From contig NC_014831.1 of the NCBI RefSeq assembly GCF_000184705.1, positions 1,550,001 through 1,614,000 on the forward strand: 64,000 nucleotides of DNA, read 5' to 3'. The position numbers and the translations under genes were made by a program. Shown piece after piece: positions 38,703 to 64,000 of the stretch. Positions within the stretch are counted from its first letter, which is position 1; each line of letters begins with the position of its first letter. Under the pieces are notes generated by a model that saw only the letters and a list, made by a program, of their open reading frames with translations, did not search any database and was not told the origin of the DNA. The stretch is from Thermaerobacter marianensis DSM 12885. Its GTDB lineage: Bacteria > Bacillota > Sulfobacillia > Thermaerobacterales > Thermaerobacteraceae.

Positions 38703-39446
38703 CTAGCCTGAGTGCCAGGCTGCGTCGAAGAAGGCGAACTCCAGCTCCATGGCCGTCCGGTAGAGCGGCGCCACTTCGCCGGGACCGCCCGCGGTGGCGT
38801 GCCAGCGGTTGACCAGTTCCTCCAGCCGCACTGCAAGGGATTCGAAGTCCGGACTGCCGTAGGTCTCGACCCACTCGCGGTACGGATTGTCCGCCGTGAC
38901 GCGAGGGCGCAGCGACTGGCCGAGGAAGGCGTAGAGGCGCATGCACGGCGTCATGGCCGCGGCAATGGCGCCCACGGCCCGCGACCAAGCCACCTCGAGG
39001 AGGAACCCGGTGTAGGCCCGGGTGGCGAAAGACGGCGCCGGCCGCAGGTCCACGCCCCACCGGGCGGCGTACTTCTGGTGGAGGCGGAGTTCGTCCAGCA
39101 CCCCGTCCAAGAGGTGGCGAAGGGTCGTCATGGTATCGAGATCCGGTGCCTTGGCGATGGCCAGGGCATAGGCGCGGGCGAAGGCCTCCAGGAAGGCGGC
39201 GTCCTGGCCCACGTACCACGCGAACCGGCTCCGCGGCAGGTCGCCGCGCCCGATCCCCTGGACGAAGGGGTGTTCCAGGCACCGGCGGGCCAGGTCCAGG
39301 TTCTGCCGCCACAGCTCGCCCGCCAGGCCCGCCGGAGCCGCCGTTGCGGAATCGAGCCCCCCGGGGCCCGCGTCCGCGGGGCGGCTACCGGCGTGACGGC
39401 CGGCACCCCCGGCCTGCGCCCCGCTGAAGATCGCCTCTTCGGCCAC
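38703..39446 (-). CDS. tenA: TenA-family thiaminase II / aminopyrimidine aminohydrolase
   Basis: The 247-residue protein releases the pyrimidine from degraded thiamine so that it can be reused. TenA features are F-V-Q-G-I-G-R-G-D-L near the N-terminus, F-A-W-Y-V-G-Q-D-A, the Cys in M-T-P-C-M-R-L-Y, and the acidic residues of M-E-L-E-F-A-F-F-D. About 40 N-terminal residues are low-complexity. The GTG start at 39446 follows GGGGGAGGG. It is the last gene of the TPP-riboswitch operon, 168 bp after the transporter. Confidence 0.88.
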   Translation of the reverse strand: MAEEAIFSGAQAGGAGRHAGSRPADAGPGGLDSATAAPAGLAGELWRQNLDLARRCLEHPFVQGIGRGDLPRSRFAWYVGQDAAFLEAFARAYALAIAKAPDLDTMTTLRHLLDGVLDELRLHQKYAARWGVDLRPAPSFATRAYTGFLLEVAWSRAVGAIAAAMTPCMRLYAFLGQSLRPRVTADNPYREWVETYGSPDFESLAVRLEELVNRWHATAGGPGEVAPLYRTAMELEFAFFDAAWHSG

Positions 39447-39509
39447 GATCCATCCCTCCCCCGGTGAATCGCCGGCGGCCCCTGAGCGAAGGGCTCCGCC
39501 GGCCCGCTC

Positions 39510-39520
39510 CCGGTTCGTCC
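39510..39520 (+). repeat. Dispersed 11-bp motif CCGGTTCGTCC, intergenic copy
   Basis: This copy lies in the tenA/ECF gap (39447-39614). Exact copies on the plus strand start at 8804, 12565, 21964, 39510 and 48526; on the minus strand they span 3472-3482, 9749-9759, 34025-34035, 37659-37669 and 42796-42806. Most fall in linkers, tails, insertions or gaps. No copy lies in the lower-GC island. One-mismatch copies occur, for example at 43696 and near 39911. Confidence 0.7.
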
Positions 39521-39614
39521 GAACGACCCGCCCCGCCCCTTCCCCTGGCGGCGCGGCCTACCCCGTGCCGCGTCCCGCCCTCCACCGCGTCCCCCGGGAC
39601 GTGCCGCCCCGCCG

Positions 39615-42212
39615 TCACGCCAGCCGGCGGGCGGCGATCAGCGCCAGCGCGGCCATCGCCAAGAGCAGGGCGGCGTACCCCACCTCCCGGCGCCCGGCCG
39701 GCAGGGTCCGGTAAAACGTGCGTGGCCGGCGCCCGTCGAAGCCGCGGGCCTGCAACGCAACGGCCACCGTCTCCGCCGCCCGTATGGCCTGGACCAGCAT
39801 GGCCAGGCTGTAGCGATAGATAACCTGCAACCGCCCGCCCAGCCCCTGCCCCCCGAGGCCGCGGACGCGGTACGCCTTGCGGACCCGGCCCAGGTCTTCC
39901 TCGAACAGGGGGACGAACCGCAGGGCGGCCAGGATGCCATAGGCCCACTGCGGGCTCAGACGCCACTGCTGCATGAGCCCCAGCACCAGGTCGGTCAATC
40001 CTGTGGTCCCCGCATACAGGACCCCGAGGGCGCCGAGGTTGAGCAGCCGCAGCCCCACCACCAGCCCTTGGTGCAGCCCCTCGGCGGTGAACCGGTACCA
40101 GAGGATCTGCCCCACCACGCGCTCCCCCTCCCCGAAGGCGCCGAGGGTCCAGACCCGCGTGGCGGCTACCAGCAGGAAGGGCGCCATCGCCACCAGCCAG
40201 CGCCGCGGCCCGACGCCGCCTACCGTCAGGCCCAGCACCACGGGCACCGCCAGCAGCGCCGCCAGGGCTGCGGGATCGGCCGTAGCCAGCACGACCGCCG
40301 CCATCACCAGGTGGGCGGCGAGCTTCCACGCGGGATGAACCCGGCCGATCCAGGGGACCCGGCGCCGGTGCGGGGGTTCTGAAGGAAGGTCCGGGGCGGC
40401 CGTGGCCGGTGCGGTGTCCGGCGCAGGCCGGGGCCCCGCCTCTACGGCCGCCGGGTCGGCGGGGGCCGGTGCCAGCCCGGCAGCCGCCACCCGCGCCGGA
40501 TCGTCCAGGAAGTCGGCCGGCGGGCCGTCGTAGAGCAGCCGGCCCTGGCCGAAGACCAGCAGCCGCGTCGCCGCCGCGGCGGCCAGCTCCAGGTCGTGGG
40601 TCGCCATGACCAGCGTGGTTCCCTGGCGGTGGAGGCGGACCAGCTCCTCCACCAGGGCGGCGGCCGTCCGGGCGTCCTGGCCGAAGGTGGGCTCGTCCAG
40701 CACCAGCAGCGGCTGCGGCACCACCAGCATGCTGGCCACGCTCAAGCGGCGCTTCTGGCCCTGGGACAGGGTGTAGGGGTGGACACCCTCAAACCCTTCC
40801 AGGCCAAACCGCCGGAGCAGCTCCTCGACCCGCGGCCGCAGCACCGGCTCGGGGATCCCCGCCAGGCGACCGGCCAGCGCCACCTCGTCGTACACCGTGT
40901 CGGTCACGAACTGGTGCTCGGGATTCTGGAAGACGAAGCCGACCCGGGGCGGTGCCCCGCGCCGCGCCTCGAGCGCCGGGCCGTAGACCACCCGGCCCGC
41001 GGCAGGGGCATGCAAGCCCGCCACCACCTGGAGGAAGGTCGACTTGCCGGCGCCGTTGGCGCCCACCACGGCCACCCACTCGCCCGCCCCGATGGCGAGG
41101 CTCACCCCCGACCAGACGGGCCTCGCCCCGTGGGCGGCGGCCACCCCGTCAAGGCGAACCAGGGCCTCTCCGGCGAGCTGGCCGTGGGATGCCGGCAAAG
41201 GCTCCGGCCCCGGTGCCGGTGGCGTGCCCGCCAGGTGCGCCTCGGAGCTGCCGCCGTGCCGCGCCAGCACGGGCGACCAGAAGGGCCCCCAGCTGCGGGG
41301 CCGCCAGATGCCGTACGTTTCGATCTCCGCCCGGTACCGGCTGAAGACCGCTTTCGGCTCGCCGTCCGCCAGGACCCGCCCGCCTGGGGCCAGCAGGACC
41401 ACCCGGTCGACCCAGTCCACGACGCCGTCCAGGTTGTGCTCCACCACCAGAACGGTGTGGCGCCGGTCCAGGCGCCGGAGCGCCTCCAGGACCAGGGCGC
41501 GCCCCGGCGGGTCCAGCTGGGCCGTGGGCTCGTCCAGGACCAGCAGGGCGGGCTCCAGGGTCAGGACGGAGGCCAGGGCCAGCCGCTGCTTCTGCCCGCC
41601 CGACAGGGCGTGGATGGGGTGGCCGAAGGGGACCGGCAGCCCCGCCGCCGCCAGGGCGGCCGCCACCCGGGGCGGCATCTCGGCCGCCGGCACGCAGCGG
41701 TTCTCCAGGCCGAAGGCCACCTCTTCGTCGACGGTGAACATGCAGAACTGGGCTTCCGGGTCCTGGAACAGCACCCCGGCCTGGCGCGCCGGCCGGAGTT
41801 CGCCCTGCACTTCGGCCTCGACGATGCGGGGGATGATCCCGGCCAAGGCGAAGGCCAGCGTGCTCTTGCCCGACCCGCTGGGCCCGAGCAGCAGCACCCG
41901 CTGGCCGGCCGGGATGGACAGGGTCACGCCGCGGAGCGCCGGCGCCGGGCGGCCGGGGTACCTGATGGTGAGCTCGCGGCAGGCCACGGCGGCGCCGCCC
42001 GGGAAGCCGGCCGGTTCCTCCGCCCCGCCGGGCGTCGGCGGCTCCGGCCGCGCAAGCCGTGGCCGGTCATCCGGGTGCTTGTCCCGCTCCCCCTGCGCCC
42101 GACCGGCCGGGTGCTCGGGCCGCTCCACGGGCTCCACCCTGTCGCGCGGTCCCCCGGTACGCGGTTCCGCCGCGCCAGGCGGGGCGCCACGCCCCATGGG
42201 GTCCCCGGCCAT
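39615..42212 (-). CDS. ECF transporter energising module fused in one chain (EcfA-EcfA'-EcfT; YkoD-YkoC fusion)
   Basis: This 865-residue protein joins three subunits that are normally separate. After ~70 low-complexity residues, the first ABC domain (Walker A at ~110-118, L-S-G-G-Q-K-Q-R, L-V-L-D-E-P-T-A-Q-L-D) is followed by a second (G-A-N-G-A-G-K-S-T, L-S-Q-G-Q-K-R-R, L-V-L-D-E-P-T-F-G-Q). From ~640 on there is a CbiQ-like transmembrane domain with the coupling helices A-R-G-F and K-A-Y-R-V-R-G-L. Its ATG lies 1 bp from the ykoE stop. With YkoE it should import a thiamine precursor such as hydroxymethylpyrimidine. Confidence 0.92.
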   Translation of the reverse strand: MAGDPMGRGAPPGAAEPRTGGPRDRVEPVERPEHPAGRAQGERDKHPDDRPRLARPEPPTPGGAEEPAGFPGGAAVACRELTIRYPGRPAPALRGVTLSIPAGQRVLLLGPSGSGKSTLAFALAGIIPRIVEAEVQGELRPARQAGVLFQDPEAQFCMFTVDEEVAFGLENRCVPAAEMPPRVAAALAAAGLPVPFGHPIHALSGGQKQRLALASVLTLEPALLVLDEPTAQLDPPGRALVLEALRRLDRRHTVLVVEHNLDGVVDWVDRVVLLAPGGRVLADGEPKAVFSRYRAEIETYGIWRPRSWGPFWSPVLARHGGSSEAHLAGTPPAPGPEPLPASHGQLAGEALVRLDGVAAAHGARPVWSGVSLAIGAGEWVAVVGANGAGKSTFLQVVAGLHAPAAGRVVYGPALEARRGAPPRVGFVFQNPEHQFVTDTVYDEVALAGRLAGIPEPVLRPRVEELLRRFGLEGFEGVHPYTLSQGQKRRLSVASMLVVPQPLLVLDEPTFGQDARTAAALVEELVRLHRQGTTLVMATHDLELAAAAATRLLVFGQGRLLYDGPPADFLDDPARVAAAGLAPAPADPAAVEAGPRPAPDTAPATAAPDLPSEPPHRRRVPWIGRVHPAWKLAAHLVMAAVVLATADPAALAALLAVPVVLGLTVGGVGPRRWLVAMAPFLLVAATRVWTLGAFGEGERVVGQILWYRFTAEGLHQGLVVGLRLLNLGALGVLYAGTTGLTDLVLGLMQQWRLSPQWAYGILAALRFVPLFEEDLGRVRKAYRVRGLGGQGLGGRLQVIYRYSLAMLVQAIRAAETVAVALQARGFDGRRPRTFYRTLPAGRREVGYAALLLAMAALALIAARRLA

Positions 42213-42213
42213 G

Positions 42214-42810
42214 TCAGCCCGCCAGCCCCGCCGGCCGGTCCTGCCGCTCCCGCACCACGGCGTAGGCGTTGAGGACGCCGGTCTTCGCCAGGCCGTCGAC
42301 CAGGATCTTGGCGAAGAGCCCGGCCACCACGGCGCCGCTCACCAGCCGCACCGCCACCGCCGCCGCCAGGACGCCGGCTTGCATGCCGGTGAAGTAGCCC
42401 GTGATGGCATCCAGGGGGATGCTGGCCACGGCCGCCAGCCCTCCGGCCAGGGCCAGGGCCGGCAGGTCGAACCGGCGGTATCGCAGCAGGGCGAAAGCCG
42501 CCTCGGCCCCCAGCCCCTGCAGGCCACCGTAGAGCAGGACCCACAGGACGTCGGGGCTGCCGAGCAGCAGCTCTCCCGCGGCCGCCACCAGCTCCGCCAC
42601 GAAGGCGACGCCCGGCTTGCGGATGATGTACGCCGCCACCGTGCTGGCGATGAACCAGATGCCGTAGACGGTCTCGGCCAGGACGGGGTGGACCGCCTGG
42701 GCGAGGTTCCAGAGGGTCCAGTTGTTGATGAAGACGACGGAGCAGACCGCGGCGATGAAGGCCAGCATGACGATCTCGCGGAACTGCAACCGGCGGGACG
42801 AACCGGCCAT
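42214..42810 (-). CDS. ykoE: ECF transporter substrate-binding (S) component, YkoE family
   Basis: The 198-residue membrane protein has about six helices with F-R-E-I-V-M-L-A-F-I-A-A at the start, N-N-W-T-L-W-N-L-A in the first loop, and the small-residue patches typical of S components that bind the ECF module. YkoE is linked to hydroxymethylpyrimidine/thiamine uptake. The ATG at 42810 is preferred, with AAGGGGG eight bases upstream; a TTG at 42828 overlaps that site. It is the first gene after the TPP riboswitch. A copy of the dispersed motif lies at codons 2-6. Confidence 0.9.
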   Translation of the reverse strand: MAGSSRRLQFREIVMLAFIAAVCSVVFINNWTLWNLAQAVHPVLAETVYGIWFIASTVAAYIIRKPGVAFVAELVAAAGELLLGSPDVLWVLLYGGLQGLGAEAAFALLRYRRFDLPALALAGGLAAVASIPLDAITGYFTGMQAGVLAAAVAVRLVSGAVVAGLFAKILVDGLAKTGVLNAYAVVRERQDRPAGLAG

Positions 42811-42914
42811 GGCAGGTGCCCCCTTCAAGGTTCCGGGACGGAACCAGGGGGCCCGACGGGACAGCCGGCGATGGGCGGCAGGATGCCGTGGGGTCGCCGG
42901 AGACGCTGGTTACG

Positions 42915-42941: not shown

Positions 42942-42969
42942 CCTCGTCGCGCCGCCCCGGGCGGCCATG

Positions 42970-43078
42970 CGGTACCTTCCTCACGCCGGTATGACCCGGA
43001 TCGAGTCCGAAGGGTAGCGCCCCTGCAGCCGTTGCGGCTGCCGCGCTTCTCAGCCCTCGCGGGCACCCCCGGTACCGA
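42970..43078 (-). promoter_or_regulatory. Thiamine pyrophosphate (THI-box) riboswitch
   Basis: The minus strand reads, in order, ACCGGGGGTGCC, GGGCTGAGA, ACCC near the middle, and GATCCGGGTCATACCGG, which is the conserved THI-box core. GGTACC at both ends (43071-43076 and 42971-42976) can close the P1 stem. It precedes ykoE, the fused ECF module and tenA, so thiamine sufficiency would switch off precursor salvage. The 200 bp to its 5' side (43079-43278) hold no gene. Confidence 0.95.
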
Positions 43079-43278
43079 CTTCCCGATTGGATTGTCAGCT
43101 TGATCATAGGCCCGGGCGCGGGTCACCGTCAACGCCTTTCACCGGGCCCCTAGGAAGGCGCCGACGCAAGCTCGCCGCCACGGCACCCGCGGTCGGGGCC
43201 CATGCCGGCACGGCTTCCCGGTCTCGCGACCCTCGAAAACCCTGGCCAGGGTCGGGTTCCATGCGGCCTGCGGCCGGA

Positions 43279-44055
43279 TCAGATGGCCGTCATGCCGCCG
43301 TCGATGGCCAGCACCTGCCCCGTGATGTACGACCCCGCTTCGGAGGCGAACAGCAACACGGCCCCCTGCAGATCCCGCTCGCCACCCAGCCGCCGCAGCG
43401 GCACCGACTGCTCGATCAGGGCGCCGTACTGGGCCAGGATGCCCCGCGTCATCCGGGTCGGGAAGAACCCGGGCGCGATGCAGTTCACCGTGATGCCGTA
43501 CTCGGCCAGCTTGGCCGCCAGGTCGCGGGTGAAGTTGATGACCCCCGCCTTGGCCGTGTTGTACGGCAGCGTCTGCATGACCCGGGGATCGCTGCCCCGC
43601 AGGCCCGCCACCGAGGCCACGTTGATGATCCGTCCGCCGCGCCCCTGCTTCACCATCACCCGGGCCGCCTCGCGGCTGGCGTAGAAGGTGCCGTGCAGGT
43701 TCGTCCGGATCACCTTGTCCCAGGCTTCCAGGGGGATGTCGAAGAAGGGCGCGCCCCAGGTGGCGCCGGCGTTGTTGACCAGGATGTCGAGGCCGCCGAA
43801 CGCCTCCACCACCCGGCCGACTGCCGCCGCCACCTGGTCGTAGTCGGTCACGTCGCAACGGATGGCGAGGCTGCGGATGCCCTGGGAGCGCAGCCGCTCT
43901 TCGGCCTCCTTGAGGCCGTCTTCCTTGCGGGCCGTGATGGCCACGGCGGCCCCCGCCTCGCCCAGCCCCTGGGCGATCTGAAATCCCAGGCCGCGGCTGC
44001 CGCCCGTCACCAGGGCCACCTTGCCGTCCAGGCGGAAACGGTCGAGAATGCCCAT
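43279..44055 (-). CDS. SDR-family oxidoreductase (3-oxoacyl reductase / gluconate 5-dehydrogenase-like)
   Basis: The 258-residue NAD(P)-dependent enzyme has the classical SDR cofactor motif T-G-G-S-R-G-L-G (about residues 17-24), N-N-A-G in I-L-V-N-N-A-G-A-T-W, the catalytic Ser in N-V-A-S-V-A-G, and Y-N-T-A-K with Tyr and Lys. The ATG at 44055 lies nine bases after GGAGG. The much longer open frame upstream is antisense to the acyl-CoA dehydrogenase. It is divergent from that gene with a 196-bp gap; a role on the same substrates is possible but not shown. Confidence 0.9.
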   Translation of the reverse strand: MGILDRFRLDGKVALVTGGSRGLGFQIAQGLGEAGAAVAITARKEDGLKEAEERLRSQGIRSLAIRCDVTDYDQVAAAVGRVVEAFGGLDILVNNAGATWGAPFFDIPLEAWDKVIRTNLHGTFYASREAARVMVKQGRGGRIINVASVAGLRGSDPRVMQTLPYNTAKAGVINFTRDLAAKLAEYGITVNCIAPGFFPTRMTRGILAQYGALIEQSVPLRRLGGERDLQGAVLLFASEAGSYITGQVLAIDGGMTAI

Positions 44056-44251
44056 CTCGCCCACGCCTCCTTGAAGTCGCCCGTCATTGTCGAGGTCGGG
44101 GACCCCGTGGAGCACCCGGGCCCCTTGCCGGGGTCTTGCAGGGATTTCCTTCTCGGCGGCGAAGCCAACTCCTACCTTGGGACGGCCTGGTGGACGGATA
44201 CGCCGTCGCGTCCCGGCTTCTCTCCCGCGAAGCGCCACCGAGGTGATCCCC

Positions 44252-45526
44252 GTGTACGATTTCCGTCCGACCCCGGAGCAGGAGGCCGTCCTCGCGCGGA
44301 CCCGCGCCATCATGGACGAGTACGTGTACCCCGCCGAGGCCGAGTTCTTCCGGACGGGGACCTTGCCCGAGGAACGGATGAAGGCGATCCAGCGGGCGGT
44401 CAAGGAGGCGGGCCTGTGGGCGCCCCACATGCCCAAGGAGGCGGGCGGCCTGGGCATGGGGATGGTGACCCTGGCGCTGATGAACGAGATCCTGGGCCGC
44501 AGCCCGCTGGCGCCGCGGGCCTTCGGCACCGGCGCCCCGGACACGGGGAACCAGGAGATCCTCTGGATGTTCGGGACGCCGGAGCAGAAGGAGCGCTTTC
44601 TCAAGCCCAACCTGGCCGGCGAGGTGTACAGCTGCTTCGCCATGACGGAGCCCGAGGTGTCGGGGTCCGATCCCACCACCCTCCGGACCCGGGCGGTCCG
44701 CGACGGCGACCACTGGGTGATCAACGGGCACAAGTGGTTCATCACCAATGCCGCCCGCTCCGCCTTCGCCATCGTCATGGCCGTCACGGATCCCGACGCG
44801 CCACCCCACCGGCGGGCCACCATGATCATCGTGCCCACGGACACCCCAGGGTTCCGCATCGTCCGCCACGTGCCGGTGATGGACGATGGCGGCGGGCTGG
44901 GCACCCACGACGAGATCGTCTTCGAGGACTGCCGGGTGCCCGTCGAGAACACCCTGGGTCCCGTGGGCGAGGGCTTCCGCATCGCCCAGGCCCGCCTGGG
45001 GCCCGGCCGCATCACCCATGCCATGCGCTGGATCGGCGTGATGAACCGCAGCTTCGAGATGATGGTCCGGCGCGCCCTGACCCGGGAGACCCGGGGGCGC
45101 AAGCTGGCGGAGTTCCAGACCATCCAGAACTTCGTCGCCGACTCCTACGCCGAGATCCAGGCGGCGCGGCTGCTGACCCTGCACGCCGCGTGGAAGATGG
45201 ACCAGGGCCTGGACGCCCGGAAGGAGATCTCGCTGATCAAGTTCTTCGGCGCCCGGGTGCTCCACGAGGTGGTCGACCGCGCCCTGCAGGTCCACGGCGC
45301 CCTGGGGTACTCGAAGGACACGCCGCTGGAGCTGTTCTACCGCGAGGCCCGGGCCGCTCGCATCTACGACGGGCCCGACGAGGTGCACCGGGTGGTGGTG
45401 GCGCAGCGGATCTTCAAGGAGTTCGCCCAGCAGGCCGAGGGCGGACCGCCGGCGGCGGGAGCGGCGGAAGCGGCTCCGGCGGCGACGGGACAGGCGGCGG
45501 CGGAGACGGCTGCCGGCGGCGCGTAA
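44252..45526 (+). CDS. Acyl-CoA dehydrogenase, ACAD10/ACAD11-like
   Basis: The 424-residue flavoprotein has the ACAD fold motifs C-F-A-M-T-E-P-E-V-S-G-S-D, I-N-G-H-K-W-F-I-T-N-A, and R-I-T-H-A-M-R-W-I-G. Near the C-terminus it reads A-R-I-Y-D-G-P-D-E-V-H-R, with Asp where many ACADs have the catalytic Glu; this D-G-P-D-E-V-H form is typical of the ACAD10/11 group. The C-terminal ~25 residues are Ala/Gly-rich. GTG at 44252 follows GAGGTGA. A kinase gene starts 16 bp downstream, recreating as two proteins the kinase-dehydrogenase pair that is fused in animal ACAD10/11. Confidence 0.9.
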   Translation: MYDFRPTPEQEAVLARTRAIMDEYVYPAEAEFFRTGTLPEERMKAIQRAVKEAGLWAPHMPKEAGGLGMGMVTLALMNEILGRSPLAPRAFGTGAPDTGNQEILWMFGTPEQKERFLKPNLAGEVYSCFAMTEPEVSGSDPTTLRTRAVRDGDHWVINGHKWFITNAARSAFAIVMAVTDPDAPPHRRATMIIVPTDTPGFRIVRHVPVMDDGGGLGTHDEIVFEDCRVPVENTLGPVGEGFRIAQARLGPGRITHAMRWIGVMNRSFEMMVRRALTRETRGRKLAEFQTIQNFVADSYAEIQAARLLTLHAAWKMDQGLDARKEISLIKFFGARVLHEVVDRALQVHGALGYSKDTPLELFYREARAARIYDGPDEVHRVVVAQRIFKEFAQQAEGGPPAAGAAEAAPAATGQAAAETAAGGA

Positions 45527-45542
45527 GCAAAGGAGGAGGACC

Positions 45543-46685
45543 GTGAGCCACCCGCTGCGGGAGCCGGAATCCCAGGGCGAGCGGCGGCCTGCCGCGGGGG
45601 AGGGCGGGTCTGGCGTACCGCCGGGCACCATCCCGGTCCGGCCCGGCGAGGAACTGGACCTGGCGGCGGTCGCGGCCTTCCTGGCGCGGCACGTGCCGGA
45701 CTTCCCCGGCCCGCCCCTCGAGGTGCGCCAGTTCGCCGCGGGCGCCTCCAATCTCACCTACTGGCTGCGGGCGGGGACGTGGCAGGCCGTCCTGCGGCGG
45801 CCGCCCTTCGGGCCGCTGCCGCCCAAGGCCCACGACATGGTGCGGGAGGCCACCGTCCTGCGCCACCTGCACCCGGCCTTCCCCCTGGCGCCCCGGCCCC
45901 TGGCGGTATGCGCCGACCCGTCGGTCCTGGGCGTTCCCTTCTACGTCATGGAATACCGGCCGGGGGTGGTGGTCGACCACGAGTTCCCCGGCGGCCGCGT
46001 GCCGCCGTCGGAGCAATGCCGCAAGGTCGCCCACCTGGTGGTGGATACCCTGGCCGATCTCCACGCCGTCGACTACGGTCGGGCGGGGCTGGCGGACCTG
46101 GGCCGGCCCCAGGGTTTCGTCCGGCGCCAGGTGGAGGGGTGGATCGGACGCTGGCGGCGGGTCGAGACGGAACCCATTCCGGCCCTAGACCGGTTGTTGC
46201 CCTGGATGGAAGAACGCGTTCCCGAGCCGGCCGGCACCGCCCTGATCCACAACGACTTCAAGCTGAACAACATGATCCTCAGCCCCGCCCTGGACCGGGT
46301 GGTGGCGGTGCTGGACTGGGAGATGGCCACCCTGGGCGACCCGCTGTTCGACCTGGGTGTCAGCCTGAGCTACTGGGTCCACCCCGACGACCCCGACGTG
46401 CTGCGCAACGGCCTGCCGACGGTCACCGTCCATCCCGGGTTCATCCGCCGCGGGGAGTTCGTGCACCGCTACGCCCTGCGCACCGGCCGGGACGTGAGCG
46501 GCATCGGCTGGTACCTGGTCTTTGCGTACTTCAAGCTGGCCGTGATCCTGCAGCAGATCTACTACCGCTGGCGGGCGGGCCAGACCCGGGACCGGCGGTT
46601 CGCCTCCTTCGGCGAGAAGGCCCGCGGCCTGATCCAGCTGGCCGCAGAGGCGGCCGCAGCCGGGGGCGGCGAGGGGCTGCTCTGA
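45543..46685 (+). CDS. Aminoglycoside-phosphotransferase-like kinase (ACAD10/11-kinase / LvaA-like)
   Basis: The 380-residue protein has an APH/choline-kinase fold: A-S-N-L-T-Y-W-L-R in the glycine-rich loop, V-L-R-R-P-P with the ATP-binding region, the catalytic block L-I-H-N-D-F-K-L-N-N with Asp and Asn, and V-L-D-W-E-M-A-T-L-G-D-P with the metal-binding Asp. This combination is seen in kinases that act on 4-hydroxyacyl-CoA. The GTG start at 45543 follows AAAGGAGGAGGACC. It is in one operon with the ACAD gene and the DinB-fold gene. Confidence 0.85.
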   Translation: MSHPLREPESQGERRPAAGEGGSGVPPGTIPVRPGEELDLAAVAAFLARHVPDFPGPPLEVRQFAAGASNLTYWLRAGTWQAVLRRPPFGPLPPKAHDMVREATVLRHLHPAFPLAPRPLAVCADPSVLGVPFYVMEYRPGVVVDHEFPGGRVPPSEQCRKVAHLVVDTLADLHAVDYGRAGLADLGRPQGFVRRQVEGWIGRWRRVETEPIPALDRLLPWMEERVPEPAGTALIHNDFKLNNMILSPALDRVVAVLDWEMATLGDPLFDLGVSLSYWVHPDDPDVLRNGLPTVTVHPGFIRRGEFVHRYALRTGRDVSGIGWYLVFAYFKLAVILQQIYYRWRAGQTRDRRFASFGEKARGLIQLAAEAAAAGGGEGLL

Positions 46686-46714: not shown

Positions 46715-47224
46715 ATGCCAGCGGCAGCAGGAGGAGCGCAGCTGACCGCCGCCCAGATCTTCCTTCCGAACCTTCAGGGCTGGCGGCAGGCCCTGCTCCA
46801 ATGCACCGACGCGATGGACGACCAGCAGCTGCACTGGGTCCCGCCGGGCGGCGTGAACTCGACGGCCTGGTGCGTGCGCCACCTGGCCCAGTCCGAGGAC
46901 TGGTTCGTCAACGCGGTGATCCTGGGCCGGGACATGCGCCCCAAGCGGGCCCGGGAGCTGGCCACCCGGGACGCCCTCTTCGACTACTTGCACGCGGTGT
47001 GGGCCCACACCGACGCCCGGATGGCGGAGTGGGACCTGGACTACTTGCTGGAGCCGCGGGTCATGCCCCCGGGATTCCGCGGCACGCCGCCCGCCCACCT
47101 GACGGTCCTGTGGGTGGTCAACCAGATGGTCCAGCATTTCGCCTACCACGTGGGCCAGGTCCGCATGCTGGCCCGGCTGATGGGCGTCGAGCCGGTCCCC
47201 GCCGGTGAGCGGGCGAGCCCGTAA
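46715..47224 (+). CDS. DinB-fold (YfiT/DinB) family protein
   Basis: The 169-residue protein has a four-helix DinB/YfiT-like pattern with probable metal-binding His residues in C-V-R-H-L-A-Q-S-E-D-W and in the pair V-Q-H-F-A-Y-H-V-G-Q (H-x3-H-x-G-Q). Members are often thiol-dependent transferases or damage-inducible proteins of unknown role. The ATG at 46715 follows GAAGGGAGGG. It lies 29 bp after the kinase gene and appears to be the end of that operon. Confidence 0.8.
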   Translation: MPAAAGGAQLTAAQIFLPNLQGWRQALLQCTDAMDDQQLHWVPPGGVNSTAWCVRHLAQSEDWFVNAVILGRDMRPKRARELATRDALFDYLHAVWAHTDARMAEWDLDYLLEPRVMPPGFRGTPPAHLTVLWVVNQMVQHFAYHVGQVRMLARLMGVEPVPAGERASP

Positions 47225-47313: not shown

Positions 47314-48279
47314 TCACCCCCCGCGGCCAGGGCCGCCGTCACGCACGATCACGCTGTCGCTGTGCAGCAGCCGCCACCACTGCCGGTAGAGTTCCTCCGC
47401 CTGGTCGCCGTCCATGGGCCGGAAGCGGATGCGGTCCCCGGGCCGCGCCTGGGCGAGCAGGCAGGTGTCCGGGGTCACCACCACACCCAGCTTGGGGTAA
47501 CCGCCCACGGTGGCCCGGCCCGCCAGCAAGACGATGGGTTGCCCGCTGGGCGGGATCTGGATGGCTCCCAGGGGCTGCCCTTCCGAGAGCACTTCCCCCG
47601 CGGGCCGCGGCACGGGCGGGCCCTCCAGGCGCAGCCCCATGCGGTCCGACGCGGGCGTCACCGTGTACTCGCCGCTGCAGAACACCTTCCACGCCTCGGG
47701 CGGGAAGAACCCGGCCTGGGGGCCCGGCACGACGCGGGCCACGAAGGGCTCAGGAACGAAGGTCCAGCGGACCCGGCGGCCCACCAGGGCCCGCGGGTCG
47801 GCGGCCGGCTCGCCCAAAGGCAACCGGTCCCCCGCTCGGAGGGGCGTTCCGGGCCGCTCGGGCAGCCCGCCCAGACGGCCCAGCGGGTCCGTGGACCGGC
47901 TCCCCGCCACCGGTTCCACGGCGATGCCGCCCGCCACGCAGAGGGTGGCCCGACACCCCCGGGGGCCGCCCCGGAAGGCCAGTACGTCGCCGGGCTCGAC
48001 CAGCGCCACCTGACCGGTGGGGAGGAGCCGGCCGTTGAGCGTGGCTCCCAGGTCGGCCCCCGTCACGGCAATGGCCGTCGTGGCGTGGAACCGGATGATG
48101 GGACCGATGAGGGTCACCTCGAGGGCCGCTGCGCCCGGCTCGTTGCCCACCAGGCGGTTGCCCAGGATCAGGGCGGCCACGTCGGCCGCCCCCTGCACGG
48201 GTACCCCCAGGTGCTGCAGGCCGGTCCGGCCCAGGTCCTGGATGGTGGTGTAGAGGCCAGGGCGGATGATCTCGATCAT
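47314..48279 (-). CDS. pxpC: 5-oxoprolinase subunit C (KipA / biotin-dependent carboxyltransferase-like)
   Basis: The 321-residue protein has the subunit C opening E-I-I-R-P-G-L-Y-T-T-I-Q-D-L-G-R-T-G, followed by G-V-P-V-Q-G-A-A-D and L-E-V-T-L-I-G-P, and near the C-terminus G-G-Y-P-K-L-G-V-V. PxpABC hydrolyses 5-oxoproline to glutamate with ATP. The ATG at 48279 is chosen because the family domain starts there; 26 upstream residues are low-complexity. It lies 103 bp downstream of pxpB and is the last gene of the cluster. Confidence 0.93.
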   Translation of the reverse strand: MIEIIRPGLYTTIQDLGRTGLQHLGVPVQGAADVAALILGNRLVGNEPGAAALEVTLIGPIIRFHATTAIAVTGADLGATLNGRLLPTGQVALVEPGDVLAFRGGPRGCRATLCVAGGIAVEPVAGSRSTDPLGRLGGLPERPGTPLRAGDRLPLGEPAADPRALVGRRVRWTFVPEPFVARVVPGPQAGFFPPEAWKVFCSGEYTVTPASDRMGLRLEGPPVPRPAGEVLSEGQPLGAIQIPPSGQPIVLLAGRATVGGYPKLGVVVTPDTCLLAQARPGDRIRFRPMDGDQAEELYRQWWRLLHSDSVIVRDGGPGRGG

Positions 48280-48382
48280 GGCCTCGCCAGCGCACCTCCG
48301 CTCCGCCCCGCCGTCTCCGGGCGTACCACGGCAACCCGCCGTCCCGGGGCGCGCCACGGCACCGGCGCCCGGCGGGTCGCCA

Positions 48383-49288
48383 TCACCGTCTCCCCTTCCC
48401 GTTGGCGTCGGCGGGCGCCGCCGTCATCGCTTCGGGCCCGCGGGTGGCGGTCCCCGTCGGTCCGCCGTTGGTACGGGCGCCGCCGGGGGCCGCCGGTCCC
48501 CGGGCCGGGCCGGCCGGGGGCACGGCCGGTTCGTCCCGGACGACCCACTCCGGCCGGTACGCTCCCCGGGCCACGGCCTCCGCGATGCGGCGGTACTCGT
48601 CGCCCGTGACGGGAACGAAGCGGACGTAGTGCCCGGGGCGCAAGAGGGCCGGCGGATCGCTGGCCGGATCGAACAGCCGCACGGGCGTGCGGCCAATCAG
48701 GTTCCACCCCCCGGGACTCTCCACCGGGTAGACGCCCGTCTGCTCGCCGGCGATGCCGACGGAGCCGGCGGGGACCCGGGTACGAGGCACGGACCGGCGG
48801 GGGGTGGCCAGCCGCGGGTCGAGCCCGCCCAGGAAGGGGAATCCCGGACTGAACCCCAGAAAGTACACGAAGTAATCTCGGCCCGCGTGGAGCCGGACCA
48901 CTTCCCCGGGGTCGAGGCCGTGGAACCGGGCCACGTCCTCCAGGTCCGGCCCCCACTCCCCACCGTAGGCCGTGGGCAAAAGGCAGACCCGGGCCACCTC
49001 GGGCTCAAGCTGGTCCAGCACCGCCAGTCGCTCCCGGCAACGGTCGACCAGCTGGTGAAAGGTCACCGTCACGGGGTCGAACCGGACATAGAGGGCGGCG
49101 TAGGAGGGGATCACGTCGACCACCCCCGGCCACCCGGCCTCCACGACCGCCCGTGCCAGCCGGCGGACGCGGCGGTTGACGGCGGGGTCGACGACCTGGG
49201 GGAAGACGACGTACAGCCCGCAGTCGCCGGCGCGCAGGAATTGGGGTTCCTGATCCTGGAGGCCTGGTGGGGTCGTGTTCTCTGCCAC
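48383..49288 (-). CDS. pxpB: 5-oxoprolinase subunit B (KipI / allophanate-hydrolase-subunit-1-like)
   Basis: The 301-residue protein shows A-G-D-C-G-L-Y-V-V-F at the start, C-L-L-P-T-A-Y-G-G-E-W-G-P-D-L, F-L-G-F-S-P-G-F-P-F-L-G-G-L, and T-R-V-P-A-G-S-V-G-I-A-G with Q-T-G-V-Y-P. These are the PxpB landmarks. GTG at 49288, seven bases after GGAGGG, is preferred over GTG at 49303. The C-terminal ~60 residues are Pro/Ala/Gly-rich and carry one copy of the dispersed motif. It works with PxpA and PxpC. Confidence 0.93.
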   Translation of the reverse strand: MAENTTPPGLQDQEPQFLRAGDCGLYVVFPQVVDPAVNRRVRRLARAVVEAGWPGVVDVIPSYAALYVRFDPVTVTFHQLVDRCRERLAVLDQLEPEVARVCLLPTAYGGEWGPDLEDVARFHGLDPGEVVRLHAGRDYFVYFLGFSPGFPFLGGLDPRLATPRRSVPRTRVPAGSVGIAGEQTGVYPVESPGGWNLIGRTPVRLFDPASDPPALLRPGHYVRFVPVTGDEYRRIAEAVARGAYRPEWVVRDEPAVPPAGPARGPAAPGGARTNGGPTGTATRGPEAMTAAPADANGKGRR

Positions 49289-49483
49289 CCTGGATCCCTC
49301 CACCCGGGGCTTTCCCAGCCCCCACAGGTCGTGCCGTGCCGGGGCGGATCCCTCCGACCCGCGGGTCCCTCCGCCCCGGGGCGCATTCTTGCCCCCCGGC
49401 TCGGGCAGGAGGCGTTCTTCCCCACAGGGCGCGTCCCCGGCGCCGGAACGGGCCGTCCACCCCGTCCACGCCGTGCCCGCCCG

Positions 49484-50260
49484 TCAGCCACGCAGGATCG
49501 CCCGGAGCGGGCGGATGCCGACACCCGCCGCCTCCAGCCGCTGCCGGACGGCGCGGGCCAGGCTCACCGACGCGGGGTTGTCCCCATGGATGCACAGGCT
49601 GTGCACCGAGAGGGCGACGTCCGTGCCGTCGACGGCCCGCACCTTGCCTTCCCGCACCATCCGCTCGGCGCGAGCGGCCACCTCGGCGGGATCGTGCAGG
49701 ACGGCCCCGGGCTGCCGGCGGCTCACCAGGCTGCCGTCGGGGTTGTAGCCGCGATCGGCGAAGCCTTCGAGCGCCACGGGCAGCCCGGCCTCCGCCGCCG
49801 CCCGGGCCAGCTCGCTGCCGGGCGGCGCCAGCACGATGAGCTGGCGGTCGAAGGCGGCGATGCCCGCCACCACCGCGCGGGCCAGGACGGCATCGCGGGC
49901 TGCCTGGTTGTAGAGGGCGCCATGGGGCTTGACGTGCTGGAGCTCGACCCCCAGCGCCCGGCAGAAGGCGTAGAGCGCCCCGATCTGGTAGATCACGTCG
50001 GTACGGACTTCGTCGGCCGTGGCGTGGATCTCCCGCCGGCCGAAGCCCACCCGGTCGGGAAAGCCGACGTGGGCGCCGATGCCGACGCCCAACGCCGCCG
50101 CCCGCTGGACCGTCCGCTCCATCACCCGGGGATCGCCCCCGTGAAAGCCACAGGCGATGTTGGCCGAGGAGACCAGCGGGAGGGTCTCCTCGTCCATGCC
50201 GATGGTGTAGGCCCCGAAGCTCTCGCCCAGGTCGCAGTTGAGGTCGATGACGGCGCTCAT
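49484..50260 (-). CDS. pxpA: 5-oxoprolinase subunit A (LamB/YcsF family)
   Basis: The 258-residue protein matches the family throughout: D-L-N-C-D-L-G-E-S-F-G at residues 6-16, S-S-A-N-I-A-C-G-F-H-G-G-D-P, G-A-H-V-G-F-P-D, H-V-K-P-H-G-A-L-Y-N, F-A-D-R-G-Y and S-L-C-I-H-G-D-N-P. It is the catalytic-core partner of PxpB/PxpC in ATP-dependent 5-oxoproline hydrolysis. Its ATG overlaps the stop of the M14 peptidase gene by four bases (ATGA), so peptidase and oxoprolinase are translationally coupled. Confidence 0.95.
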   Translation of the reverse strand: MSAVIDLNCDLGESFGAYTIGMDEETLPLVSSANIACGFHGGDPRVMERTVQRAAALGVGIGAHVGFPDRVGFGRREIHATADEVRTDVIYQIGALYAFCRALGVELQHVKPHGALYNQAARDAVLARAVVAGIAAFDRQLIVLAPPGSELARAAAEAGLPVALEGFADRGYNPDGSLVSRRQPGAVLHDPAEVAARAERMVREGKVRAVDGTDVALSVHSLCIHGDNPASVSLARAVRQRLEAAGVGIRPLRAILRG

Positions 50261-62911: not shown

Positions 62912-64000
62912 TCAGCCTTGGGCACCGCCCCCCGCGGCCATGCGCGCCTTCTCCTCCTCGACCAGCACCCGGCGCAAGACCTTGCCCACGGCCGTCTTGG
63001 GCAGCTCGCTGCGGAACTCGACGAGCTTCGGCACCTTGTAGGCGGCCAGCCGCTGGCGGCAGAAGGCGACGATCTCGTCGGCGGTGGCGGTGGCGCCCGG
63101 CTTCGTCACGATGTACGCCTTCACCGTCTCGCCGCGGTAGGGATCGGGCACCCCCGCCACGCAGCACTCGGCCACGGCCGGGTGCTCGTACAGCACCTCT
63201 TCCACCTCGCGCGGGTAGACGTTGTACCCCGAGGCGATGATCATGTCCTTCTTGCGGTCGACGATGTAGAAGTATCCGTCCTCGTCCATCTTGGCGATGT
63301 CGCCGGTGTAGAGCCACCCGTCCCGCAGGGCCTCCGCCGTCTCCTCCGGCCGGTTCCAGTAGCCCTTCATCACCTGCGGGCCGCGGATGCGCAGCTCGCC
63401 CACCTCGCCCGGCCCCAGCACGCGGGTGCCCGTCTCCACGTCGACGATCTCGGCGTCGGTGTCGGGGTACGGGATGCCGATGCTGCCGGGCTTCCGCACG
63501 CCGTGCACGGGATTGCAGTGCGTGACCGGCGAGGCCTCGGACAGGCCGTAGCCCTCCAGCACCTGGGCGCCGAAGCGCCGTTCGAAGGCCTGCATGACCT
63601 CCACCGGCATCGCCGCGCCGCCCGAGTTGCAGAACTGGATGGAGCCCACCCCGTACGCCTCGGCGTTGGGGTAGTTGTTGACCGCCACGTACATGGTGGG
63701 CACGCCGGGGAAGAAGTTGGGCCGGGTCGCCTTGATGATCTCCATGACCTCGGGCAGCTCGAAGCGCGGCACCAGGATGAGCTCGTAGCCCGAGGCCAGG
63801 CCGTAGTTCATGCACACCGTCATGCCGTAGGAGTGGAAGAGGGGCAGGATCGTCAGGATGCGGCCCTCGCCGGGCTTCATCCGCTCCGCCGCGGGGAACC
63901 AGTGCTGTACCTGGATCGTGTTGGCCACCAGGTTGCGGTGGGTCAGCATGGCCCCCTTGGACCGGCCCGTGGTGCCGCCGGTGTACTGCAGCACGGCCAC
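62912..64000 (-). CDS. Long-chain acyl-CoA ligase (AMP-forming), C-terminal part; start outside window
   Basis: At least 362 residues of an adenylate-forming ligase are present. It has the AMP-binding P-loop Y-T-G-G-T-T-G-R-S-K-G-A, G-Y-G-L-S-E-A-S-P, Y-T-G-D-I-A-K-M-D-E-D-G-Y, the hinge D-R-K-K-D-M-I, and the final K-T-A-V-G-K-V-L-R-R with the catalytic Lys. It activates fatty acids as CoA esters. The N-terminus lies beyond the right edge. The neighbouring ThDP enzyme might act on CoA thioesters made by it. Confidence 0.95.
   Translation of the reverse strand: MAVLQYTGGTTGRSKGAMLTHRNLVANTIQVQHWFPAAERMKPGEGRILTILPLFHSYGMTVCMNYGLASGYELILVPRFELPEVMEIIKATRPNFFPGVPTMYVAVNNYPNAEAYGVGSIQFCNSGGAAMPVEVMQAFERRFGAQVLEGYGLSEASPVTHCNPVHGVRKPGSIGIPYPDTDAEIVDVETGTRVLGPGEVGELRIRGPQVMKGYWNRPEETAEALRDGWLYTGDIAKMDEDGYFYIVDRKKDMIIASGYNVYPREVEEVLYEHPAVAECCVAGVPDPYRGETVKAYIVTKPGATATADEIVAFCRQRLAAYKVPKLVEFRSELPKTAVGKVLRRVLVEEEKARMAAGGGAQG

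Follow-up and report, generated by a model that had tools for sequence, protein, structure and literature searches.

What do two adjoining genes for an acyl-coenzyme A (acyl-CoA) dehydrogenase-like protein and an APH-type kinase do together in Thermaerobacter marianensis DSM 12885? They lie in the stretch analysed here, a window of 64,000 nucleotides (contig NC_014831.1, positions 1,550,001 to 1,614,000, forward strand). In animals, such a kinase and such a dehydrogenase are fused in ACAD10 and ACAD11, and a first-pass annotation of the letters had called the two genes a split ACAD10/11-type pair and had suggested the same chemistry for them, the breakdown of 4-hydroxy acids by phosphorylation. 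From the residues, the predicted fold and the comparison of genomes given below, we think it quite probable that the pair encodes a kinase and a phosphate-eliminating dehydrogenase acting on hydroxyacyl-CoA, and that the dehydrogenase, whose class is distinct from that of ACAD11, would do the same kind of chemistry.

Structure and conservation of the gene pair

The genome is a single contig of 2,844,696 bases, and the G+C content around the pair is 72–74%. The two genes stand head to tail with the dehydrogenase first and a spacing of exactly 16 bp, as the first-pass annotation had described them (Table 1). By Pfam, the dehydrogenase-like protein has the three domains of acyl-CoA dehydrogenases (N-terminal, middle and C-terminal), and its neighbour matches APH (PF01636) at E 2.5e-48. 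Both genes are kept in two congeners (identity 93–94% and 84–85%), in which the two open reading frames (ORFs) overlap by 4 bp, and dN/dS against these congeners (0.07–0.08 and 0.18) indicates purifying selection on both. Because the pair is kept in two congeners with low dN/dS, it is not a chance arrangement. The word “split” is right in that two separate genes are present here, but it may mislead, since the bacterial loci read have separate genes, and it is probably the fusion in animals that is derived.

Active-site residues and predicted fold of the dehydrogenase

According to PMC12440821, R626, H634 and R637 of mouse ACAD11 hold the phosphate of 4-phosphoacyl-CoA and are the residues whose substitution had the worst effect, R631 positions the substrate, a role that it also has elsewhere in the family, and D753 is catalytic; C635 has no mention in the paper. 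ACAD11 R626, R631, H634, M636, R637 and D753 align with R248, R253, H256, M258, R259 and D373 of the window enzyme. D373 is found where most conventional acyl-CoA dehydrogenases have Glu, and the D-G-P-D-E-V-H string to which the first-pass annotation had pointed is indeed present at residues 373–379. The signature of the family can be written R..LGPGR.xHxMR / DG.DEVH.

We surveyed 150 acyl-CoA dehydrogenase-like ORFs from 163 loci plus the window. The set R626, H634, R637 and D753 is found in 109 of the 150 ORFs (93 distinct), while none of the other 41, which are conventional relatives, has the three phosphate residues together and none has the His.

The structure of the dehydrogenase was modelled with AlphaFold2 on a 39-row alignment (mean predicted local distance difference test score 87.9), and 997 chains were aligned with the model, of which the best 50 entries were considered. 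The top matches are human ACAD11 (2wbi, Z 51.7), 4hr3 (Z 51.1), a putative acyl-CoA dehydrogenase from Mycobacterium abscessus, and mouse ACAD11 (8v3u, Z 50.7), with root-mean-square deviations of 1.7–1.8. The next match, a conventional short-chain enzyme at Z 43.4, is the highest conventional one among the best 50 of 997, and the predicted fold is nearer to ACAD11 than to conventional enzymes.

Residues and relatives of the kinase

The kinase matches the ACAD11 kinase domain at E 2.1e-51, with an identity of about 36% to the mouse protein, and 3dxp at E 5e-54. Its closest solved relative is 9o56 (E 8.8e-129, query residues 29–373), and a literature search for that code found no paper on it. 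Key residues are R101-E102, R195, D238, N243 and D258-W-E. Counting the window, 111 kinase ORFs (102 distinct) have at least 300 aligned residues. The equivalents of the catalytic D220 and N225 of ACAD11, D238 and N243, are kept in all 111, R195 (equivalent to R176) in 109, and R101 (equivalent to R86, beside the alphaC Glu) in all 111. R86 was matched by description, as that Arg counts as residue 84 in the printed chain and the numbering is off by two. R176 and R86 are the two arginines said to contact CoA in ACAD10/11-type kinases.

Phylogeny of the dehydrogenase

Two trees were built. The first, quick tree has 114 rows and leaves out 16 duplicate or cut loci, rows shorter than 280 aa and non-signature rows below 35% identity. 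The second, careful tree has 47 rows picked from the 114, without L141, a divergent plasmid row that carries the signature and that the 114-row tree places, at the end of a long branch, among the conventional enzymes. The two trees agree on the main point, and in the 47-row tree the signature enzymes are split from the conventional ones with a support of 100/100. Class labels were set by identity to the window enzyme (class A <48%, class B ≥48%) and hence are not independent of it. The class A clade (100/100) includes mouse ACAD11, 4hr3 and bacterial rows that mostly read HHCMR. The window enzyme lies inside class B (89/87), together with many Bacillales, Chloroflexota and its own genus, and its nearest relative outside the genus comes from a metagenome-assembled genome (MAG) of Ktedonobacterales (L010, 70% identity). 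A “mid” set stands between the two classes with its placement not resolved.

The dehydrogenase resembles ACAD10/11 by its residues but lies outside the ACAD11 clade, in a sister class of a wider phosphate-binding family. On this point the tree gives the outcome that the first-pass annotation had named as one that would count against its reading. Compared with mammalian ACAD10 and ACAD11 (sections of PMC12440821 and PMC11342911), the window has the same combination of kinase and dehydrogenase, the catalytic Asp, the equivalents of R626, R631, H634 and R637, those of D220, N225, R176 and the Arg beside the alphaC Glu in the kinase, and its best fold matches; it differs in having two separate genes, a separate clade and HAMR for HCMR. 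4hr3 has the same signature including HAMR but belongs to class A with ACAD11.

The lva operon of Pseudomonas putida also has separate genes for the kinase (LvaA) and the dehydrogenase (LvaC), but it contains a linked CoA ligase (LvaE), which is not found adjoining the window pair. LvaC is reported to have the Asp and the active-site residues common to ACAD10/11 and, in PMC11342911, to be 56–62% identical to them, compared with about 41% to mouse ACAD11 for the window enzyme; LvaA and LvaC were compared by description only, and their sequences and that of ACAD10 are not among the tree rows. Because of this reported identity, LvaC would be expected in class A.

Rubrobacter and Ktedonobacter were also considered as the source of both genes. 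Their kinases are 54–59% identical to that of the window (L002, L007, L013 and L014), but their best dehydrogenases reach only 44–49% and belong to class A, and this origin was rejected. L010, the Ktedonobacterales MAG, departs from this pattern in having a pair of class B.

Co-occurrence of the kinase and the dehydrogenase

A survey of 299 genomes of the phylum placed the dehydrogenase (E ≤1e-85) in the same 5 genomes as the kinase (E ≤1e-30); three of these, from this genus, have class B and two others class A. In the larger genome searches, scoring was confined to the five or six best candidates of each genome, and misses are possible. Among 61 nearer relatives, the kinase was found in 5 genomes, and the same 5 have a dehydrogenase match of at least 44% identity. 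We read 20 of the dehydrogenase places listed in these relatives, and the signature was present in five, one per genome. Neither the congener G003 nor G004 gave a kinase match at E ≤1e-30, and the best dehydrogenase was 35% identical in G003 and at most 35% in G004, a draft of 580 contigs in which the absence is weaker. In 301 genomes from the phylum of G069, the dehydrogenase (E ≤1e-110) was found in 41 and the kinase (E ≤1e-30) in 59.

To describe the spacing of the two genes, we used 79 kinase loci, 44 of which contain a signature dehydrogenase. Of the 20 signature ORFs with at least 48% identity to the window enzyme, 18 lie on the same strand as the kinase and within 60 bp of it or overlapping it; the two exceptions (L076 and L077) read YHSMR rather than THAMR. 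For class A ORFs in these loci (n = 24), 8 are within 60 bp of the kinase and 22 within 1.7 kb.

A kinase tree was built without 14 duplicate loci and without rows of fewer than 290 aligned residues or less than 38% identity. Kinases that partner class A and those that partner class B are interleaved in it, with 22 changes against a least possible number of 2, and therefore both dehydrogenase classes draw on one kinase pool. This interleaving also rules out that the kinase tree mirrors the dehydrogenase tree.

Proposed reaction and alternative explanations

In the proposed reaction, the kinase would move a phosphate from ATP onto the hydroxyl of a hydroxyacyl-CoA, most likely at C4. The dehydrogenase-like enzyme would then bind the phosphoacyl-CoA, with the phosphate held by R248, H256 and R259, D373 acting as the base and flavin adenine dinucleotide (FAD) as a “rebound” hydride carrier. 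Elimination of the phosphate would give a 2-enoyl-CoA, which could enter beta-oxidation, and class B may act on other hydroxyacyl chains than ACAD11. What is proposed here for the reaction, for its 4-position and for the role of FAD is taken over from the work on ACAD10/11 and Lva. The chemistry suggested by the first-pass annotation is thus retained as to its type, a kinase with phosphate elimination, which is supported by residues beyond the D-G-P-D-E-V-H string, by the fold and by co-occurrence, while 4-hydroxyacyl-CoA as the substrate is suggested by analogy.

Several results weigh against this reading. The window does not have the literal HCMR motif but reads HAMR, the sole change being Cys635 to Ala (4hr3 likewise has HAMR, and other relatives read HSMR or HVMR). 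Single signature residues occur in the 41 conventional ORFs as well: the second Arg in 12, the first Arg in 1, the Asp in 3 and the R631 equivalent in 27, with a gap at the catalytic position in 12. Forcing the window enzyme into one clade with class A, the ACAD11 clade, was rejected by the approximately unbiased test (p-AU 6.6e-51), for which the class A rows were chosen after the first tree, though the question itself came from the first-pass annotation. In the phylum of G069, 18 of the 41 genomes with the dehydrogenase have no kinase at E ≤1e-30; the flanks were read in 4 of these 18, a divergent APH-type ORF adjoins the dehydrogenase in 2, and no clear kinase was seen in the 2 others (L159 and L161). 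No CoA ligase was found within 16 kb of the pair. The genome has 12 AMP-binding genes, and the match closest to the pair starts at window position 63356, some 17 kb away. We know of no activity reported for any class B enzyme.

The short-chain dehydrogenase/reductase (SDR) gene that diverges from the pair also belongs here. LvaD is the linked keto-acyl reductase of the lva operon, and SDR genes are frequent near related kinases. The SDR of the window is still present in two genomes in which no such pair was found, G003 (91%) and G004 (86%), and in G003 (L183, from 8766 on) the gene order in common with the window runs through the SDR and then breaks. Since the gene is kept in these two genomes, the SDR is probably not a dedicated LvaD-like partner of the pair.

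The alternative that survives best keeps the two steps of phosphorylation and elimination but gives class B a substrate outside the 4-hydroxy fatty acyl-CoAs; oxidative decarboxylation of a 2-oxo acid could, for instance, supply a hydroxyacyl-CoA that is shorter or more polar. We regard it as rather unlikely, though it deserves more weight than the other alternatives. Class B is a separate clade, and the window enzyme has Thr at position 633, where ACAD11 has His, and Tyr at 752, where most class A enzymes have Ala or Val. Of 18 class B loci, 3 contain 2-oxoacid dehydrogenase E1/E2 genes (L044, L053 and L059) and 2 contain 2-oxoacid:ferredoxin oxidoreductase genes (L028 and L060); however, these genes are in Bacillales, and no 2-oxoacid enzyme was noted beside the window pair. 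Moreover, 12 of the 18 loci have an acyl-CoA synthetase match by BLAST, up to 5.3 kb away, and one kinase pool serves both classes, both of which speak against this alternative. Taken as a hint, the class B neighbours point to varied acyl-CoA sources, with some substrates derived from 2-oxo acids.

A conventional acyl-CoA dehydrogenase that happens to stand beside an unrelated small-molecule (antibiotic) kinase is very improbable. Such a view could draw on the names, as Pfam gives only general families, the NCBIfam matches of both proteins are below the cut-offs, and the closest solved kinase, 9o56, was deposited as “aminoglycoside phosphotransferase”. However, the enzyme has Asp for the catalytic Glu and an Arg/His/Arg set found in 0 of 41 conventional relatives, both genes co-occur in the home phylum, and hygromycin B kinase, the best match named for a particular antibiotic, reaches an E of only 3.8e-6 against 2e-51 for the ACAD11 kinase domain. 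Least probable of all is a true ACAD10/11 orthologue within their clade and with the same substrate range: although all tested catalytic and phosphate-site residues match, only Cys635 differs within HCMR and the best structural matches are ACAD11 and 4hr3, the single clade with class A is rejected for the rows used, and 153 of 369 aligned residues (about 41%) are identical to mouse ACAD11, compared with a median of 57% (range 38–60) for class A rows.

Phosphatase genes linked to the kinase

Of the 79 kinase loci, 26 carry a member of the 2-phosphosulfolactate phosphatase family (PF04029, ComB-type) on the strand of the kinase and within 3 kb of it, a number that overstates the independent cases, as many loci come from related species (Planococcus, Aneurinibacillus). 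A histidine phosphatase gene is likewise near the kinase in 6 other loci, which gives 32 of 79 loci with a phosphatase. PF04029 copies beside the kinase, whose families were checked by Pfam of representatives, are found for example at L042:8297-9055 and also in L005, L002 and L009, and they occur in both class A and class B loci. Since there are only 0 to 3 PF04029 genes per genome in the 22 genomes searched, their closeness to the kinase is, judging by these low counts, unlikely to be due to chance.

The linked copies have Leu in 25 of 26 cases at a position where eight unlinked copies all have Arg. These eight copies, found far from any kinase (L169–L176), form one side of a branch (97/89). 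A strict clade of linked ComB-type genes was rejected, as 9 changes between the labels “linked” and “other” are required on the tree, part of which comes from the labelling (the 3 kb cut, short loci, and four sets of rows that are identical yet bear both labels). No such phosphatase gene lies beside the window pair, and the single PF04029 gene of its genome was rejected as the phosphatase of the pair, being about 0.9 Mb away and also present in G003.

According to the part of PMC11342911 considered, the HAD domain of ACAD10 was first thought to dephosphorylate the intermediate, its activity proved negligible, and free phospho-acid was seen in cells. By analogy, the phosphatases of the bacterial operons are candidates for dephosphorylating the phospho-intermediate. 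No report of the link between kinase and phosphatase was found in the literature searched, among the matches listed. For this link, for the HCMR motif and for the pairing of the genes, the papers listed were the two on ACAD10/11 and others whose titles point to unrelated subjects.

From these results, we tentatively suggest a wider picture, which we hold as a possibility and not as our expectation. Class B may be a widespread phosphoacyl-CoA-eliminating branch with substrates of its own, which shares the kinase pool of class A with repeated exchange of partners, and in many of these kinase operons a dedicated phosphatase, either a special ComB-type or a histidine one, would reset stranded phospho-intermediates, the role first proposed for the ACAD10 HAD domain. 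If the proposed chemistry is right, bacteria would use phosphorylation and elimination of hydroxyacyl-CoAs broadly, through two enzyme classes or more, and the strategy would extend beyond levulinate degraders and animals. The linked phosphatases would offer a direct test of how cells keep phosphoacyl-CoA from accumulating, a question left open for ACAD10. The bacterium is likely a thermophile, and stable proteins for the study of the flavin “rebound” step may thus be at hand.

Other features of the window and of related loci

The coordinates of the features are collected in Table 1. The DinB-superfamily gene is possibly co-transcribed with the pair; it was rejected as a member of the pathway, since its protein has no relative outside the genus in the loci compared by BLAST.

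Table 1. Features in and around the gene pair, with positions in the window
Feature	Position	Strand	Basis or remark
Putative YkoE/ECF transporter and TenA-like block	38703-42828		after the riboswitch; names by reading
Thiamine pyrophosphate (TPP) riboswitch	42960-43080	-	54.9 bits (gathering threshold 54.3)
SDR oxidoreductase gene, divergent	43279-44055	-	upstream of the pair
Shine-Dalgarno-like GAGGTGA	44240-44246	+	before dehydrogenase start; read directly
Acyl-CoA dehydrogenase-like gene, class B	44252-45526	+	GTG start, 424 aa
Phosphate-helix match R248-LGPGR253-I-T-H256-A-M-R259	44993-45028	+	residue mapping to ACAD11
Codon of D373 (catalytic D753 of ACAD11)	45368-45370	+	alignment
Shine-Dalgarno-like AAGGAGG	within 45530-45539	+	before kinase start; read directly
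APH-type kinase gene, predicted hydroxyacyl-CoA kinase	45543-46685	+	GTG start, 380 aa
DinB-superfamily gene	46715-47224	+	Pfam; 29 bp after kinase
Three genes resembling a PxpC-PxpB-PxpA set	47314-50260	-	judged by eye

In class B loci, a second dehydrogenase-like gene follows the kinase at L042:7117-8271, with similar ORFs in 9 other loci, and in BLAST alignments to the window enzyme it has no clear catalytic Glu or Asp at the usual place. A PAS/sigma-54 activator gene lies near the class B pair at L042:3251-4720 (minus strand) and also in L035, L044, L047, L061 and L065; the best NCBIfam match of the L042 copy is PrdR, below the cut-off. In the window itself, the transporter and TenA-like block that follows the TPP riboswitch looks like a thiamine-salvage set, and the three genes on the minus strand beyond the DinB gene resemble those for 5-oxoprolinase.

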